Positions 2,668 through 10,078 of a stretch of DNA of 10,272 nucleotides are shown here, one piece after another. The position numbers were made by a program, and so were the translations under genes. This stretch comes from Desulfobacteraceae bacterium. GTDB taxonomy: Bacteria; Desulfobacterota; Desulfobacteria; Desulfobacterales; Desulfobacteraceae. Each line of letters opens with the position of its first letter. Position 1 is the first letter of the stretch. Location of the stretch: assembly GCA_023140455.1 (NCBI GenBank), contig JAGLLQ010000141.1, positions 1 to 10,272 of the forward strand, read 5' to 3'. Below the pieces are notes generated by a model. The model did not search any database, had not been told where the DNA came from, and saw only the letters and a list, made by a program, of their open reading frames with translations.

Positions 2668-4587
2668 TTAAAAATCTTCAAAGTCTTCATCGTCATCAAA
2701 AGGGATTACCTGATCAGGTTTGACTTCATCTTTTTTTAACTGTAGCTGTTTTCTTCCCTTCGCCGGATTTGCAAGATATTTTGAAGAAGTTTGTGTTATA
2801 TTTCTTTCAATGTGTGTTTCAGATATTCTCTCATTATTGCCAGTTATCACTATAACAAGATCACCAACATATGCTTTAAGCTGCTCTGCCTGGGCATTCA
2901 TTTCTTCTGAAGCAGAAGCAGATTCTTCTGCATTGGCAGCATTTTGCTGGACAACCTTATCCATTTCTGAAATTGCAATATTGACCTGATCAATACCGCT
3001 GGACTGCTCATTGGAAGCTTCTGAAATTTCTTCAATAAGTATGCCTACCTTGCCTGCACTTTCTGCTACTTTACCAAAAGCTTTATTGGTAGAGGCTACT
3101 AACTTGGAGCCATCATCAACTTTTTTAACTGTGCCCTCAATAAGTTCGGCTGTATTTTTCGCAGCATCTGCAGACCGCATTGCTAGATTCCTGACTTCCT
3201 CTGCAACTACTGCAAATCCCGCACCTGCTTCTCCTGCCCGGGCTGCTTCAACAGCAGCATTCAGAGCCAGAAGATTTGTCTGGAATGCTATTTCGTCAAT
3301 GGTTTTAATAATTTTTGATGTTTCTTCGCTGGCTTTGGAAATTTCTTCCATAGAGCCTGTCAATAATCCCATAGACTCATTGGCCTCTTGTACCACCCCG
3401 TTTGCTTCCTTCATCAGGCTGTCTGCATGGCTGGCATTCTCAGCATTCTTTTTTGTCATTGAAGACATTTCTTCCATTGACGAAGAGGTTTCCTCAATAG
3501 AAGCTGCCTGTTCAGAAGCACCTTCAGCCATGGACTGGCTTGATGATGATACCTCGTTTGATGCAGCTGCAACCTGGCTTGCTCCTTCGTCAAGGCCTTC
3601 GATAATACGGTTGATGGGCAATGTAATCCCCCGGGCAAACCAGAGCACACCAAGGATTGTGATAAGTAAGAATATTCCCCCGGAACCAAGAACAACATTT
3701 CGAATAGTATATACCGGTGCCATAAATTCTGCTTTATTCTGGGTCACACCAATACTCCAGCCTGTAACTTTAACAGGTGCAAATCCGGCAATTTTGTCAA
3801 TTCCTTGAAAACGGTAATTATCCACACCGGATTTATTAGCCATCATCTGGCCTGTGATGGATTCCATACCTTGGAGTTGAGTAAGATTCAGCTTGAGTAT
3901 ATGTTCCTTTTTAGGATGTGCAATCGTAAGGCCGGTTTTGTCTATCATAAACGGATAACCTGTCTTGCCTATCTTTACTTTTGTAATTTTATCGGACATT
4001 GTATCAAACTTGACAACTATTCCGAAAACACCGGTGAAATTTCCTGAATCAGTTTTTAGGGGCACAGCTATCACAAAGACAGGTTTGCCACTGGCTCTGG
4101 ACAGGATAGGTTTGCCGATGCTGACTTTTCCGTTTTTAGCTGCTATGAAATAATCTCTGTCTGCCACAGATAATTTTTTTTCCCGAAGAGTTCCACCTGC
4201 ACTGTCTGCAATGGTAACTCCATGAGTATCAGTGACAAATATAAGATCATAACCGCCGCCAATTTCTTTAAATACTTTTCCAAAGAAATCGTCCAGTGCC
4301 GTTAATTCGTCCATGGCAAAATCCTGTCCGCCTTCCAATACGCCGGCGGCTGCATCTGCCACCATAGGATTCATAGCCATTTCAGTGGCAAGCTTTATTT
4401 CCTGTCCTATGGCAACATCCATCATAGTGGACAGATCACCGGCGACTTGTGCAGCTTGCCCTTCTGCAGCTGTAACCAGTGCGGTTGATGATTTGTTAAT
4501 TGCAAAGAGTCCTACAACTGCTAAAGGGATAATAACAGCCATAATTCCACCAAGAATAAGTTTAAATTTAAGTGATCGTTTTTTCAT
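2668..4587 (-). CDS. Methyl-accepting chemotaxis protein, dCache type
   Basis: This is a transmembrane chemoreceptor that signals to CheA through CheW. The 639-residue protein has TM1 at about 8-28, a periplasmic double-Cache sensor at about 35-285, TM2 at about 299-319, then the cytoplasmic four-helix signalling rod. Cache hallmarks include ADRDYF (142-147) and [15 protein letters not shown] (211-225), and the domain probably binds a small metabolite. The hairpin tip, about 432-469, carries the conserved [19 protein letters not shown] stretch. Glu/Ser-rich heptads such as [12 protein letters not shown] (365-376) are likely methylation regions. After TM2 only a short [12 protein letters not shown] segment resembles HAMP before the coiled coil starts, so HAMP is abbreviated or degenerate. 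The C-terminus is a flexible linker ending in an acidic DDDEDFEDF tail, not an NWETF-type CheR-binding pentapeptide. The start is supported by GGAGG 9 nt upstream. It lies 16 nt after cheW and 83 nt before cheA. Confidence 0.96.
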
Positions 4588-4603: not shown

Positions 4604-5125
4604 TTAATTTTTATTTACTGTCTGATCCAATGATGATACCTCGTCGCTGCTTAGTACAAGGTCAATATCCAGAAGGATTTTTACGCCGCCTTCCATTTTC
4701 GCCATACCTAATATATAAGTCGCATCCAGGCTGGCACCAAAATCAGGTGTGTCCTCAATATCATCTGCTCTTATATTTAAGACTTCTGACACCTCATCCA
4801 CAACACAACCTACAAGGATGTTGCCGGATGCCCCCTGAATCTCAACAACAATAATGCAGGTCCTGTCTGTATAATCCATCGCGCTTATTTCGAATTTAAG
4901 CCTGAGATCCATTACCGGAATAACTTTTCCTCTGAGATTGATGACTCCTTTTACATATTCAGGTGTCTGAGGGACTGAGGTTATGGGCATCATCCCAATG
5001 ATTTCCTTAATTTTTAAAATACTTATGCCGTATTCTTCATTGTCCAGTACAAAGGTAAGGTATTTCCCTTCCCGCTCCGGCAAAGCCTTTATCGCCTGAT
5101 CAATTGTTTCTGATGGTTTAGACAT
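4604..5125 (-). CDS. cheW: Chemotaxis coupling protein CheW
   Basis: CheW is the cytoplasmic adaptor that links receptor tips to the P5 domain of CheA. The 173-residue protein is one CheW domain (about 20-160) with a 20-residue N-terminal extension and a short polar tail. The family signature [15 protein letters not shown] is at 61-75 and includes the conserved Arg65 of the receptor-contact region. GVINLRG and the final [10 protein letters not shown] strand (about 148-157) are typical. Its ATG lies inside the end of the preceding gene, which it overlaps by 8 nt (ATGTCTAA shares that gene's TAA). An AGGAG Shine-Dalgarno lies in that gene's last codons, so translation is probably coupled. The MCP begins 16 nt downstream. 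Confidence 0.97.
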
Positions 5126-5507
5126 TTTTAATATTCTCCTTTATTTTTTTTTGTATTTGTCTTAATACAGAAGCAACATCCTGCAAATCACTGTCAACAT
5201 AGCTGACAAAGCTTGTTTTCAACTTAAAACCCAATGCAAGCGTTTCTTTGCTTCTGTCAGGCAAAATTAGAATCACCCGACTATTGTCAAAAAGCATGTT
5301 CATTAAATTGAATTGAATCAGTTCCTCTTTAGAATCAATTATAAGGATTACGACAGATACATTGTTCAATGGCTGCCGAAGTATTTGAGAAAGAAGTTCA
5401 ATAGAATTACAGGTTTGGATTTTAGTTCTGGAGACTTGTGTATGGATAATATTTTCGAGTTGTTCCCCGATATTATTTATTCCATTTGCGTACAAGATTA
5501 TTTTCAT
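5118..5507 (-). CDS. Receiver-like (pseudo-receiver) protein, first gene of chemosensory operon
   Basis: I do not recognise a named family for this 129-residue protein. Its predicted alternation follows a CheY-like fold: strand MKIILYA, helix 12-25, strand near 29-34, helix 36-45, strand VVILIID (52-58), strand RVILILP in the middle of the second half, and a final amphipathic helix ending in lysines. Asp58 at the end of the third strand sits where CheY has Asp57. The acidic pair at the end of strand 1 is missing (LYANG), no Thr/Ser follows strand 4 (ILPDRS), and the invariant Lys-Pro after strand 5 is absent (SYVDSD). It is therefore at best a degenerate receiver, perhaps a protein-interaction module for CheA or CheW. 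The start at 5507 has an AGGGG Shine-Dalgarno 8 nt upstream. It is the first gene after the sigma-54 promoter and overlaps cheW by 8 nt. The ORF is well supported; the fold assignment is inference. Confidence 0.75.
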   Translation of the reverse strand: MKIILYANGINNIGEQLENIIHTQVSRTKIQTCNSIELLSQILRQPLNNVSVVILIIDSKEELIQFNLMNMLFDNSRVILILPDRSKETLALGFKLKTSFVSYVDSDLQDVASVLRQIQKKIKENIKNV

Positions 5508-5563
5508 TTCTTGTTCCCCTGCGATTTGTATTAATAAAATTTTTTTGCTTTGATATTAGGCAG

Positions 5564-5579
5564 AGCAGAAAGTGTGCCA
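5564..5579 (-). promoter_or_regulatory. Sigma-54 (-24/-12) promoter of the chemosensory operon
   Basis: The minus strand reads TGGCACACTTTCTGCT, which fits the RpoN consensus TGGCACG-N4-TTGCW at nearly every informative position. The -24 GG (5578-5577) and -12 GC (5566-5565) are exactly 10 nt apart, the spacing sigma-54 requires. Transcription would start near 5553, giving a leader of about 46 nt before the ATG at 5507. A sigma-54 promoter needs an ATP-driven activator, and one is encoded immediately upstream (5753-7156). The promoter has not been shown experimentally. Confidence 0.82.
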
Positions 5580-5664
5580 TAAGGTTATGTTTTAGATTTT
5601 ATTTAATGATAACAATGGGTTGCAGTATTATAGGATAGGCGTCGATTTTGGAATTTGAAAGCAT

Positions 5665-5706
5665 ATTCCTAAAAACAGGAATGAATTTATTCCTGTTTTT
5701 AGGAAT
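5665..5706. promoter_or_regulatory. Candidate enhancer (UAS): two back-to-back 18-bp palindromes
   Basis: Two 18-bp blocks, each ATTCCT-N6-AGGAAT, lie at 5665-5682 and 5689-5706 with 6 bp between them. Each is an inverted repeat, and the second is the exact reverse complement of the first, so the whole 42 bp forms a perfect 18-bp inverted repeat with a 6-nt loop (GAATTT). Four alternating half-sites start at 5665, 5677, 5689 and 5701, a strict 12-bp period. This suits two dimers of a Fis-type HTH activator. Its centre is about 132 bp upstream of the predicted sigma-54 start, a usual distance for NtrC-family enhancers. The alternative is a transcript-end hairpin for the response regulator gene, whose stop is 46 nt away, but no T-run follows on either strand. 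Confidence 0.72.
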
Positions 5707-5752: not shown

Positions 5753-7156
5753 TCATGAAGAACTGAATTTGGACAGATTATGCTTTTTGAGCAAACCATA
5801 TAAACGGGATTGAGAGATACCGGAAATCCGGCCTGCTTCATTTCTGTCTCCTTTAACAGTGCTCAGCAGTGTCTTTAAGTAATTTTTTTCAACCATAGTT
5901 CGATAATCATTCAAGCTGGGAAGCTCGCCCTCTGGAGACAGGCTCTCAACAGATTCCTGATCTATTTCGATTTTTGTGGTCAAATTAAACTCCAGCCCTG
6001 CTGTCCGGTATTCTACAGGAAGGTGTTTGGGAAATAAAGTGGGGTCCTGACCTGCGGCAGCCAGTACATATTCTAAAACATTTATAAGTTCCCGTACATT
6101 CCCGGGCCAGTCATGGGCTGCAAGAGCTTGAAAAAACTCCTGGGAGATCGCCTTTGTTTCAAAGCCATATCGTTGCCCAAGCGCATGAATTTTTTTTATG
6201 GTTATTTCTTCAATATCCTGTTCTCTTTCCCGTAAAGGAGGGAGTTTAATTCCTATAGCTCGGATTCTGTATAAAAGATCTTCGCGAAATAATTTTTCTT
6301 TTACCATTTTATCAAGATCAAGGTTTGTGGCTGCAACCAGTCTGAAATCAACAGGTTTTTCCGATTTTCCACCTACAGGGCGAACACACCGTTCCTGGAG
6401 GGTTCTCAAAAAAGTTTTTTGAACAATCAACGGAAGATCTCCTACTTCATCCAGCATAAGAGTCCCGCCTTCAGCTTGTGCAATCAAACCTTCCTGTTTT
6501 GTTTGTGCCCCTGTAAATGCTCCTTTTTCGTGTCCGAACAGGGTACTCTCCACTAATGTTTCGGGCAATGCACCACAATCCACAGCAATAAATGGTTTTG
6601 ATGCTCTATTACTATTTTCATGTATGGCTCTCGCAAACAATTCCTTACCGGTCCCTGTTTCGCCGGTAATGAGAATGCTGGCATCCGTAATTGAGGCGTT
6701 TGCAACTTCTTCCAGACATTTATGGACTGCATCGGACTCCCCGATAATATTTGATCGAATCAGGTGTACTGGTTGCTTGGTGGTCTGTTTTTCCTTGCGG
6801 TATTGGAGAGCACGGGTTATGGGAAGAGAAACCTCATCAAGAAGAAAAGGCTTTTGTACATAATCCCATGCACCATATTTAAAAGCCATTTTTGCTCCTC
6901 TGACATCTCCTGTGCCGGTAATAATAATGACCTCAGGCTCAGAAGGGGATTTGATCAGGTCCGGCAATATCTGCAATCCGTTCCCGTCAGGGAGTTCCAG
7001 GTCAAGAAGAACAAGGTCAAAATATTCTTTTTTGCTAAGTTGAAGTCCATCATTCATGGTATTGGCAGCATATGGTTCATGTTCCATCTGCTCTAACAAT
7101 TTGCTGAAAAACAGGCAGATTTTGGGATCATCGTCAATTATCAATACTTTGATCAT
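5753..7156 (-). CDS. Sigma-54-dependent NtrC-family response regulator
   Basis: This is a cytoplasmic transcription activator: phosphorylation of its receiver should license an AAA+ ring that remodels sigma-54 RNA polymerase. The 467 residues comprise a receiver (about 1-118) with the acidic cluster DDD (8-10), phospho-acceptor Asp52, Thr80 and Lys102-Pro; the AAA+ domain (about 136-365) with Walker A GETGTGKE (165-172), the sigma-54 contact loop GAFTGA (212-217), Walker B GTLMLDE (231-237) and the REDLLYRI arginine-finger region (291-298); a linker with WPGNVREL (350-357); and a Fis-type HTH at about 416-462 (NEAGRISGISQSRLYGLLKK). All functional motifs are intact. The start has a GAGG Shine-Dalgarno 7 nt upstream. 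It begins 13 bp after the hybrid kinase, so the two form a pair in one transcript. Its probable target is the palindromic site and sigma-54 promoter just downstream. Confidence 0.96.
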   Translation of the reverse strand: MIKVLIIDDDPKICLFFSKLLEQMEHEPYAANTMNDGLQLSKKEYFDLVLLDLELPDGNGLQILPDLIKSPSEPEVIIITGTGDVRGAKMAFKYGAWDYVQKPFLLDEVSLPITRALQYRKEKQTTKQPVHLIRSNIIGESDAVHKCLEEVANASITDASILITGETGTGKELFARAIHENSNRASKPFIAVDCGALPETLVESTLFGHEKGAFTGAQTKQEGLIAQAEGGTLMLDEVGDLPLIVQKTFLRTLQERCVRPVGGKSEKPVDFRLVAATNLDLDKMVKEKLFREDLLYRIRAIGIKLPPLREREQDIEEITIKKIHALGQRYGFETKAISQEFFQALAAHDWPGNVRELINVLEYVLAAAGQDPTLFPKHLPVEYRTAGLEFNLTTKIEIDQESVESLSPEGELPSLNDYRTMVEKNYLKTLLSTVKGDRNEAGRISGISQSRLYGLLKKHNLSKFSSS

Positions 7157-7169
7157 AGCTTTACCTCTA

Positions 7170-9953
7170 TTAAGTTTCGTTGCTTAAGGCATTGCTGACT
7201 GCCCGGGCAAGCTCGCTTGCAATCATTGGTTTCATGATCATATCAAGGATACCGTAATCTTCAATCATTTTAGCTGTTAACCCTTCACTGAAACCCGTAC
7301 AGAGTATGATCGGGATATCGGGTCTTATCGCTATCATCTGGTTTGATAATTCAAGGCCGGTCATTTGAGGCATTGCCATGTCTGTTAACACAAGATCAAA
7401 ATCATTTGGATTTTGTTTAAATTTTTCAAGTGCTTCCACGCTGTCTGTCATGCCGACAACTGTATATCCGAGCTTTATCAGCACTTGCTGTGTCCAGTTA
7501 ATGATCGGTTTTTCATCATCTATTAAAAGGATTTTACCCTTACCGGGTATGAGAAGAGGATCAAAAGAAGTTCCATCTGATACAGGTTTTTTCTGCTGTT
7601 CCGGAAGCAGCACCTGAAAGGTTGTCCCCATGTCGGGTTCACTGTAAACTGAAATAACACCTTTCATATCCTTTATGATTCCGAAGGTTGTTGACATACC
7701 CATACCTGTTCCTTCGCCACGTTTTTTTGTGGTAAAAAAGGGTTCAAAAATTCTTCCGATAACCTTTTTTGGGATGCCGCATCCAGTGTCTGCAATTGTT
7801 AATCGAACGTATTGACCCGCCTCCAGTTCTTTTGCCTGGAGGATTTCATCGTCTTGAATTTCAATTGATTTCAAGCTAACATCCAGTATCCCACCTTTTT
7901 CTTTCATTGCATGGGCTGCATTGGTAAAAAGATTCATAAGAACCTGGTGAATCTGAGTGGGGTCTGCCCTCACAATACTGTCTGATACAGAAAGATGATG
8001 CTTGATCTCAATATTGCTCGGGACAGAAGCCCTTATAAATTGCAGGCATTCTTTGATCAAAGGAGTGATTTCTATCAAATTCTTTTGTACATCTGCTTTG
8101 CGGCTGAATGTCAATATATGTTTGACCAGATCCCTTGCCCTTACACCAGCGGCCAGGACCTGATCCAGGTTCTTTATTATGTCCTCATCCTTGTCAGCCT
8201 TTAATTTTGCAAGTTCTGTAAATCCAAGCACAGATGATAGGATATTATTAAAATCATGGGCAATTCCACCGGCAAGGGTTCCAATAGCTTCCATCTTTTG
8301 GGCCTGTCTAAGTTTCTGCTCCAGGTGCTTACGTTCAGTGATGTTGCGAGTGATTCCCAATACCCTGTCAGGTTTTCCATGTTCATCCCTTAAAAAAGAG
8401 GCAGTCACTTCTGTCCAGATTTTTGATCCGTTCTTTCTTATCTGTTCCAGCTCATATGTCCTGTGTCGTTTGGGATCAATACCATCTTCAGTGTCTCTTT
8501 CCAACTCTTCAGATATGGCTGCAAATACTGTTTCTAAAGATGATTCATGAATGTAATATTCTAATTTTAAATCTATCATTTCCTCTGGTTCATATCCCAG
8601 AAGTCGTTTTACAGAAGGGCTCATATAGATCAAAGAAAGATTAGAAAGTTGTAATACCCAGATGCTGTCAGTTGCATTGTCTGCCAGCAGCCGGTACCGT
8701 TCTTCACTCTCACGTAAATTATCCTCAGACTTCTTCCTTTGAATAATACTCCACATCCCATCCATCATTAACTGTAATTGACGGACATCAGAATCATTAT
8801 AATCCTCAGGTTTATTTCCGACACCTGCAACTGCCACAATATTATCACCTTCAAATACAGGTATATTCATATGACGTAATATTTTGACATGCCCCTTTGG
8901 GTATCCTTTTTTTTCTGAGGAATCAAAATTTTCATAATCATTGACAATCACAGCCTTTCTTTGCCTGACAGCCTCACCCCATTGCCCGGTTTCTTTTGTA
9001 GAATATACCAATGCCTTCTCAACGATATCGCACTTTTTCATTGCATGCTTTGACCAGGTATGCATTGTCAACTGTGTCTCGTCCTCATTTACAAAGGCAA
9101 GATATCCGATATCACTCTGGGTCAGGTTGATGGCTTCCTCTAACGCGAATTCAGTCAGGTCGTTTAGCGATGCATCTGACATCTGGCTTAATTCCAGTAA
9201 TTTTTTCAGGCGTAACTCCTCAAGATATTTCGCTTTTTCAGCCCGGTTCTTTTTCTTTTCAATCTTGATTGTCTGCCAGGTAATATAAAATGATAGAATA
9301 ATAACTATGAGCAGTACGCCCATAAACACTTTAATAAACCCCTGGGTGATCAATCTAATTTCTTGATGTATATCTTCCACATATATGCCGGTTCCAATTA
9401 CCCAGGCCCAGGGAGAAAAGCCTTTTACATAAGAGATTTTAGGAACAATTTGTTTCGGATCATCCTTCCATTGCCAGTTGTATTCTATATAACCGCTATC
9501 CTGCTCTTTGACCTTCTCTACCATGGCGACCCAGAGTTGTTTCCCTTTGGAGTCCTTTACATCGGTCTGATCCATCCCTTCCAGGTCGGGGCGGTATGGA
9601 TGCATGATCACTCTGTGTTGCATATTAATTATCCAGAAGTAATCCTTGCCTTCAGGACCATATCGCAGGGTTCTTATCTGATTGATAGCTTCCTGTTGAG
9701 CATCTTCAAACACCAGTTCTCCATTTCTCACTCTCTGATCATATTTTGACAAAAGGCTCCAGGTGCTGTCTGTAAGTTCATGAATTGTTTCTTTTTTCTG
9801 CTTCATCATCTGTTTTTCCAGCATCGGTATAAAAACCAGAAAAACACTCAGGATAAATAAAATATATGTTGCATAGAGCGGTATAATGATTCTCAGGGAT
9901 GTTACAAACGTATTCTTATTAGATAGGAGTTCAGATGCCTTGTTTTTTTTCAT
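7170..9953 (-). CDS. Hybrid sensor histidine kinase (Cache-GAF-PAS-HisKA-HATPase-REC)
   Basis: This inner-membrane sensor kinase is probably the partner of the adjacent NtrC-type regulator. Counting from the ATG at 9953 (927 residues): TM1 about 23-45; a periplasmic single Cache_2 domain about 50-195, with DYFWI (104-108), VIMHPY (115-120) and SPWAWVIGTGIY (180-191); TM2 about 204-228; a GAF domain about 255-405; PAS about 415-540, ending in GITRNITERK; HisKA with phospho-acceptor His566 in AHDFNN; HATPase with N box NLFTNAA (674-680, Asn678), G1 DTGCGIP (722-728) and G2 GTGMGM (748-753); and a C-terminal receiver about 806-920 with Asp858 and Lys908-Pro. The frame can be extended 5 codons to a TTG at 9968, but that would place the GGAG Shine-Dalgarno inside the gene; the ATG, 9 nt after GGAG, is preferred. 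No Hpt domain is present, so the terminal receiver may be autoregulatory rather than a relay step. It shares a transcript with the regulator 13 bp downstream. Confidence 0.95.
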   Translation of the reverse strand: MKKNKASELLSNKNTFVTSLRIIIPLYATYILFILSVFLVFIPMLEKQMMKQKKETIHELTDSTWSLLSKYDQRVRNGELVFEDAQQEAINQIRTLRYGPEGKDYFWIINMQHRVIMHPYRPDLEGMDQTDVKDSKGKQLWVAMVEKVKEQDSGYIEYNWQWKDDPKQIVPKISYVKGFSPWAWVIGTGIYVEDIHQEIRLITQGFIKVFMGVLLIVIILSFYITWQTIKIEKKKNRAEKAKYLEELRLKKLLELSQMSDASLNDLTEFALEEAINLTQSDIGYLAFVNEDETQLTMHTWSKHAMKKCDIVEKALVYSTKETGQWGEAVRQRKAVIVNDYENFDSSEKKGYPKGHVKILRHMNIPVFEGDNIVAVAGVGNKPEDYNDSDVRQLQLMMDGMWSIIQRKKSEDNLRESEERYRLLADNATDSIWVLQLSNLSLIYMSPSVKRLLGYEPEEMIDLKLEYYIHESSLETVFAAISEELERDTEDGIDPKRHRTYELEQIRKNGSKIWTEVTASFLRDEHGKPDRVLGITRNITERKHLEQKLRQAQKMEAIGTLAGGIAHDFNNILSSVLGFTELAKLKADKDEDIIKNLDQVLAAGVRARDLVKHILTFSRKADVQKNLIEITPLIKECLQFIRASVPSNIEIKHHLSVSDSIVRADPTQIHQVLMNLFTNAAHAMKEKGGILDVSLKSIEIQDDEILQAKELEAGQYVRLTIADTGCGIPKKVIGRIFEPFFTTKKRGEGTGMGMSTTFGIIKDMKGVISVYSEPDMGTTFQVLLPEQQKKPVSDGTSFDPLLIPGKGKILLIDDEKPIINWTQQVLIKLGYTVVGMTDSVEALEKFKQNPNDFDLVLTDMAMPQMTGLELSNQMIAIRPDIPIILCTGFSEGLTAKMIEDYGILDMIMKPMIASELARAVSNALSNET

Positions 9954-9962
9954 AAAAACTTT

Positions 9963-9966
9963 CTCC
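9963..9966 (-). promoter_or_regulatory. Ribosome binding site that decides the hybrid kinase start
   Basis: GGAG on the minus strand (9966-9963) lies 9 nt before the ATG at 9953-9951. The competing TTG at 9968-9966 overlaps this motif and has no comparable purine tract at a suitable distance upstream. This favours a 927-residue product over the 932-residue reading. Confidence 0.7.
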
Positions 9967-10037
9967 AAAACAGCCCGCGTGAGAACAGATGGTTAGCAGC
10001 CAGTATTACATATCAAGAATTCATGTCGTAAAGGTTC

Positions 10038-10055
10038 TATTATCAATAGATAATA
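10038..10055. promoter_or_regulatory. AT-rich inverted repeat over the -10, candidate operator
   Basis: TATTATC (10038-10044) and GATAATA (10049-10055) are perfect 7-bp inverted repeats separated by AATA. The right arm contains the predicted -10 hexamer of the kinase promoter, so a bound protein would block polymerase. The half-sites resemble Fur hexamers, but their order (ATTATC before GATAAT) is the reverse of the usual Fur arrangement, so no regulator is assigned. Short AT palindromes also arise by chance in AT-rich DNA. Confidence 0.4.
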
Positions 10056-10078
10056 TTACAAAGCAGTCACAATGTCTA
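10050..10078 (-). promoter_or_regulatory. Sigma-70-type promoter for the hybrid kinase / regulator unit
   Basis: On the minus strand TAGACA (10078-10073; five of six match TTGACA) and TATTAT (10055-10050; five of six match TATAAT) are 17 nt apart. The -35 overlaps the TAG stop codon of the ywbE-like gene. The start would fall near 10043, leaving a leader of about 90 nt. Nothing else clear is seen in the 122-nt gap. Co-transcription from the ywbE-like gene is a possible alternative, as no terminator is visible. Confidence 0.55.

Follow-up and report, generated by a model that had tools for sequence, protein, structure and literature searches.

A predicted sigma-54 switch joining a two-component pair to a chemoreceptor operon in Desulfobacteraceae

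Gene content and a pseudo-receiver at the head of the operon

We analysed a stretch of 10,272 nucleotides from a Desulfobacteraceae bacterium (the window), which carries, all on the minus strand and in this order, genes for a hybrid sensor histidine kinase (7170-9968), an NtrC-type response regulator (5753-7156), a 129-aa protein (5118-5507), CheW (4604-5125), a methyl-accepting chemotaxis protein (MCP, 2668-4587) and CheA (341-2584). The kinase combines sCache_2, GAF, PAS, HisKA, HATPase_c and C-terminal REC domains, with the H-box GGIAHDFNN and with N and G boxes present. In the regulator, a REC domain (Pfam Response_reg, 6.3e-21) holding DDD from residue 8, D52 in LLDLE, K102 and a KPF motif is followed by an AAA+ domain (Sigma54_activat, 3.1e-66) with its GAFTGA loop at residue 212 and by a Fis-type HTH region (SQSRLYGLL), the last being only a weak Pfam HTH_8 match at residues 420-457 (E 0.079; 13.2 bits, the cut-off being 22). 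A gap of 245 bp separates the regulator gene from the 129-aa gene. The MCP has a dCache_1 sensor domain, and CheA contains Hpt, an MshE-related c-di-GMP-binding motif (residues 305-358), dimerisation, HATPase and CheW domains together with HTIKG and the ATPase boxes. MCP, CheW and CheA genes thus lie together in the window, as in a chemosensory operon.

The 129-aa protein, encoded by the first gene of this operon, had no Pfam match. Its structural model (pLDDT 90, built with 31 sequences) showed the (beta-alpha)5 order of a receiver and resembled receiver structures with TM values of about 0.6-0.75 by query length among the 50 matches listed. A working receiver has an acidic pair after strand 1 and a Lys after strand 5. 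Both are missing from the alignment of the 129-aa protein, and the Asp at residue 58, after strand 3 of the window protein, occurs in only 3 of the 31 homologues (the window's own counted), so we named the protein a pseudo-receiver. Some of its homologues come from organisms named Desulfobacula.

DNA elements between regulator and operon

A palindrome at 5665-5706, with arms at 5665-5685 and 5686-5706 that are 95% complementary, resolved in palindrome and dyad scans into two tandem dyads of the form TTCCT-N6-AGGAA (6-6-6), ATTCCTaaaaacAGGAAT and ATTCCTgtttttAGGAAT, whose centres lie 24 bp apart. Both the promoter-distal dyad 1 (5689-5706) and the promoter-proximal dyad 2 (5665-5682), to which we assigned no strand, read ATTCCT-N6-AGGAAT. 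The pair occurred once in the window; allowing up to 3 mismatches, none of 200 shuffles contained it. Explanations of the palindrome as a dispersed repeat or a known RNA family were rejected, the former because the pair is present at only one to three places in each genome having it and the latter because there was no Rfam match at gathering score.

The consensus of sigma-54 -24/-12 promoters is TGGCAC-N5-TTGCW. The element TGGCACACTTTCTGCT (5564-5579, minus strand) differs from it by one mismatch, giving a predicted start near 5553, and is the sole window site with at most one mismatch; with 0.47 such sites expected and one present in 81 of 200 shuffles, this match taken alone is weak and not significant. 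The -24/-12 element has GG and GC at the correct spacing and the dyads lie within the roughly 100-150 bp upstream that is usual for UAS-dependent promoters, the distance from the pair centre to the -12 C being 120 bp. Between them, an IHF-like element, CAACCCATTGTTA (5610-5622, minus strand), lies at an offset of 43 after the 40-bp enhancer pair and has one mismatch to the consensus YAANNNNYTGATW, as given in the part of PMC7962754 used here. The preliminary description of this DNA had named a regulator gene, a palindrome, a promoter and a receiver-like/cheW/MCP/cheA operon, all of which we found in place, and its enhancer distance of about 132 bp from the predicted start agrees with our measurement.

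No enhancer dyad was found upstream of the kinase gene, and nothing therefore suggests self-activation of the pair through this site. A sigma-70-like candidate, TAGACA-N17-TATTAT (10050-10078, minus strand), precedes the kinase gene in a motif scan in which such matches were at chance level in the window (23 found, 26.9 expected).

Recurrence of the control region in the family

Searching 86 genomes of the family with the 31-row alignment of the 129-aa protein returned 73 matches distributed over 46 genomes, and the sequence around each of them was examined. Together with the window, 54 loci had an NtrC-type regulator homologue that extended almost to the C-terminus, and in 49 of these a relative of the pseudo-receiver, CheW or the MCP lay within 900 bp downstream on the same strand, the remaining five being L051, L083, L105, L108 and L117. 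The arrangement had been called unusual, but these counts indicated that it recurs within the family. Using a weighting that we devised on the sigma-54 consensus given above (scale to 15), we found that the best score within 300 bp after the regulator was at least 12.5 in 38 of 54 loci, compared with 103 of 3198 control windows taken from these loci, and that a score of at least 11.5 occurred downstream of the regulator in 49 of 54, compared with 547 of 3198.

The paired dyad, with up to 2 mismatches, was present at 20 places in 15 of the 86 genomes, mostly at a single place per genome, whereas a reversed-pattern control gave 1 place. At 17 of the 20 places, as in the window, a sigma-54 site scoring 12.5-14 was found with its -12 element 115-120 bp from the pair centre, and all 17 of these related sites precede relatives of the window operon. 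At each of the 18 sites only 0-5 of 300 letter shuffles matched the sigma-54 score. The three pairs of the total of 21 that had no sigma-54 site of this score at this distance were L136, L139 and L140; the last two are 2-mismatch matches inside unrelated ORFs and were set aside as chance.

An IHF-like element lay between enhancer and promoter at an offset of 41-43 in 17 of the 18 sites (not L060), with 1 mismatch in 13 cases and 2 mismatches in 4. Other stretches fit the IHF consensus equally well at several loci, and the support for this element comes from its constant offset. We aligned 17 of the 18 sites, omitting L058 for its closeness to L056, and found the AA of the IHF-like element, the GG of the promoter and most dyad-half positions to be invariant. 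Conservation upstream of related operons, proposed earlier as a check on the site, is thus strong, extending to 17 related sites besides the window. Within a 291-genome sample of the order (1 mismatch allowed), the site was detected in G001 and G059 only, both already known to have it. An RpoN gene was found in each of the six related genomes searched.

One regulator clade carries the site

A tree was built of 54 regulators, with L060 and L071 omitted because of their short length. All 15 of its rows having the site fell within one clade of 17 (100/100), the other two members being L051, which has a diverged site, and L064. The latter is an exception, combining a 62% identical regulator and a sigma-54 site with no enhancer found within 4 mismatches; its HTH stretch reads SQARLY, and SQSRLY is common to the 14 enhancer-linked regulators shown. 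Paralogues have other HTH stretches, for example SRGHLY, SRSQLY, SRAVLY and SKSHLY, and their modules carry other dyads, such as TGTCANNTTTTTCTGACA at 85-87 bp from the -12 element in L082, L084, L096 and L114.

Five related genomes each have 21-32 matches to the window regulator at E <= 1e-60, so that the dyads might be supposed to be bound by some other activator, such as a flagellar master regulator. However, the site tracks a single regulator clade, whose member is encoded beside it in 14 of the 17 related cases, and is found at one to three places in each genome that has it, while paralogous modules show other dyads; we consider this explanation very improbable. That the regulators form one clade and that most genomes with the site have one copy argue instead for a dedicated local switch.

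Several genomes contained more than one pseudo-receiver match (five in G002, three in G001; loci L048-L120). Many of these matches belong to paralogous regulator/chemosensory modules, which have different dyads and whose promoter is often preceded by a TAACTATCTGAAAT-like element.

The enhancer stays with the operon after rearrangement

The 17 related sites comprise 14 located where the regulator gene ends, one (L050) at a contig end and two placed elsewhere than behind the regulator. At L138 regulator and operon are separated by a gene for a TonB-dependent receptor, and both enhancer and promoter remain with the operon. L062 has a second enhancer pair before a second operon, while the pair adjoining its regulator precedes an MCP gene alone. 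L051, a locus not among these sites, has an inverted regulator. Its operon still has a promoter scoring 13.5 at 115 bp, an IHF-like stretch seen by eye and a diverged dyad, TTCCAATATATTGGAA, whose partner is degenerate. These arrangements indicated that the enhancer belongs to the operon promoter and not to the 3' end of the regulator gene.

They also bear on two other accounts of the region. With all genes on one strand and a sigma-70-like site before the kinase gene, the operon might be transcribed mostly by read-through from the kinase-regulator promoter, the sigma-54 promoter being minor. Yet L051 and L138, with an inverted and a displaced regulator respectively, both retain the sigma-54 promoter, and we consider predominant read-through very improbable. 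Likewise, the palindrome might be mainly a transcript-end hairpin of the kinase-regulator mRNA, since the pair folds as an 18-bp RNA stem (-26.1 kcal/mol, z -6.0) and usually lies just where the regulator gene ends. The A-rich spacer of dyad 1 and the T-rich spacer of dyad 2 are mostly complementary, making the whole 40 bp nearly two-fold symmetric, and across 13 distinct pairs 62 of 78 spacer positions pair mutually against a permuted mean of 53.8, a value reached by 39 of 10000 permutations with relatedness uncorrected. An intrinsic terminator, however, consists of a G+C-rich stem with a T-run, and here no T-run follows the stem, which was also absent from the terminator scan. In addition, the TonB-receptor gene separates the pair from the regulator at L138, the regulator is inverted at L051, and the pair-promoter distance is held at 115-120 bp although a terminator needs no such spacing. 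There is accordingly little chance that the palindrome serves chiefly as a hairpin rather than as an enhancer.

Returning to the enhancer, the two spacers seem to change together from locus to locus. This may arise because two dimers bind with two-fold symmetry, or from a further function of the sequence at the mRNA end. Because L138 and L137 lose much of the spacer pairing (2/6 and 3/6) and yet have perfect dyads, the dyads themselves are the main constraint.

A near-constant receptor target with a variable CheA

To determine what is placed behind the conserved promoter, we compared the operons downstream of the 17 related sites. An MCP gene follows in 16 of them, the contig of L137 ending first. 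CheA homologues follow in L049, L053, L054, L055, L061 and L062; by tblastn (>60 bits) there was none in the examined stretch of L048, L050, L052, L057, L059 or L060 and none among the ORFs of L138, and the contigs of L056 and L058 end at the MCP gene. The near-constant target is thus the pseudo-receiver and the receptor, with CheA often not adjacent, and the full MCP-CheW-CheA set is found in the window. The earlier proposal that a whole array is under control therefore stands for the window but not generally, 7 of the 17 related sites having no CheA match in the examined stretch. Two reduced or altered forms were seen: at L048 (7383-7676) the CheW gene is shortened to 97 aa in a reduced operon, and at L055 (5406-7004) the CheA homologue starts at the dimerisation domain, has no Hpt match and contains two CheW stretches.

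The c-di-GMP-binding motif of CheA (NF053729) lies between the Hpt and dimerisation domains. It scored above the curated cut-off in 6 of 8 CheA scanned (window, L049, L062, L084, L103 and L107; 42.6-50.6 bits against 38). The two without it, L055 and the partial L053 stretch, both lack the N-terminal part, so that every examined CheA having this part (6 of 6) carries the motif. This suggests a c-di-GMP input to the array.

The product of such an operon could also feed back on its own switch. In Myxococcus xanthus, CrdS and CheA3 together control the NtrC homologue CrdA, according to the sections of PMC3510030 consulted, and a similar loop here would have the operon's CheA act on the regulator besides the kinase, making the array both product and input. 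The window CheA has an Hpt domain, and no CheY, CheB or CheR, as a complete chemotaxis system would have, was found among the six window proteins scanned; genes for these may be located elsewhere in the genome. Against this, the seven loci where no CheA match was obtained and the L055 CheA, with no Hpt match, mean that CheA is not a constant neighbour of the regulator; CheA could be encoded elsewhere in such genomes. We regard the loop as unlikely.

A proposed local switch and its relation to known systems

Sequence shows directly the motifs of the proteins and three DNA elements that keep a near-constant spacing and are conserved together with the operon. These features make it very probable that the kinase and regulator genes (9968-5753) form a dedicated local switch for the chemosensory operon, acting through the paired dyads and sigma-54. 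We infer the following route. A stimulus, presumably a ligand, at the periplasmic Cache domain of the kinase, possibly also at its GAF or PAS domains, would lead by phosphotransfer to a phosphorylated regulator, which would bind the two dyads at 5665-5706 as paired dimers and then oligomerise. With the DNA bent at the IHF-like site (5622-5610), the regulator would reach RNA polymerase-sigma54 at 5579-5564 and activate transcription of the pseudo-receiver, CheW, MCP and CheA genes, starting at about 5553. Sigma-54 activation of the operon by the neighbouring regulator through the palindrome, the core of the preliminary description, is a prediction from sequence that comparison strongly supports: the geometry is constant at 18 sites, the IHF-like element is present in 17 of 18, sites are few per genome, and the control region is retained after rearrangements. 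The complete wiring, namely which regulator, which 40-bp site, which promoter and which operon, can thus be predicted from DNA alone, and it suggests that some sulfate reducers would build chemoreceptors on demand under a second sensor.

An enhancer, an IHF site and a sigma-54 promoter under a neighbouring two-component regulator form a textbook mechanism. We found no published description of this module in the literature searched, which was mostly that available without subscription, and what would be new here is a recurring chemoreceptor-operon target of a known kind of switch. In Pseudomonas aeruginosa, PhoB controls the single chemoreceptor genes ctpH and ctpL, and there too a two-component system sets receptor supply; PhoB, however, is a global regulator working with another sigma factor, whereas the predicted regulator here is a dedicated neighbour working with sigma-54. 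The CrdS-CrdA/Che3 system of M. xanthus similarly brings together a histidine kinase, an NtrC-type regulator and a chemosensory system, but in the account given in the consulted part of PMC3510030 the chemosensory system feeds the regulator and the output is developmental genes, while here the predicted target is the chemoreceptor operon itself.

Among sulfate reducers, the sigma-54 regulome of Desulfovibrio vulgaris, in the portions of PMC4641369 used, counts chemotaxis (2 operons) among sigma-54-dependent functions and also lists chemotaxis among promoters without predicted UASs. Its local NtrC-family systems resemble the present one in having a REC-AAA+ regulator with an HTH region (here a weak match), UAS dyads and a -24/-12 promoter; the difference, as far as those portions extend, is that here regulator, paired UAS and chemoreceptor operon appear linked at near-constant spacing (PMC4641369). 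A 2025 sigma-54 survey reports many activators in Desulfobacteria, including 52 in Desulforapulum autotrophicum HRM2, and the words "chemotaxis" and "chemosensory" do not occur in its main text as accessed (PMC12316311).

A broader reading is that this locus is one copy of a repeatedly duplicated, insulated Desulfobacteraceae cassette (kinase, NtrC-type regulator, a private enhancer code, sigma-54 promoter, pseudo-receiver, CheW, MCP and CheA with the c-di-GMP motif), in which every paralogue would combine an enhancer dyad of its own with a matching HTH, particular receptor arrays would be made on demand and c-di-GMP would gate CheA output. This reading draws on the paralogues with other dyads and other HTH stretches and on the presence of NF053729 in all six CheA that have the N-terminal part, and we hold it tentatively, the balance lying slightly against it. 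If it were true, one sensory layer would decide which second layer exists. With an enhancer that is rare in each genome and paralogues that carry other dyads, the family forms a natural set for studying how NtrC-type regulators separate their DNA specificities.

A perfect enhancer pair also occurs at L136 (7001-7040, genome G022). It precedes the genes of a different kinase and regulator by about 117 bp, and neither strand has a good sigma-54 site at the usual distance; this enhancer pair may mark a second target or be a relic.
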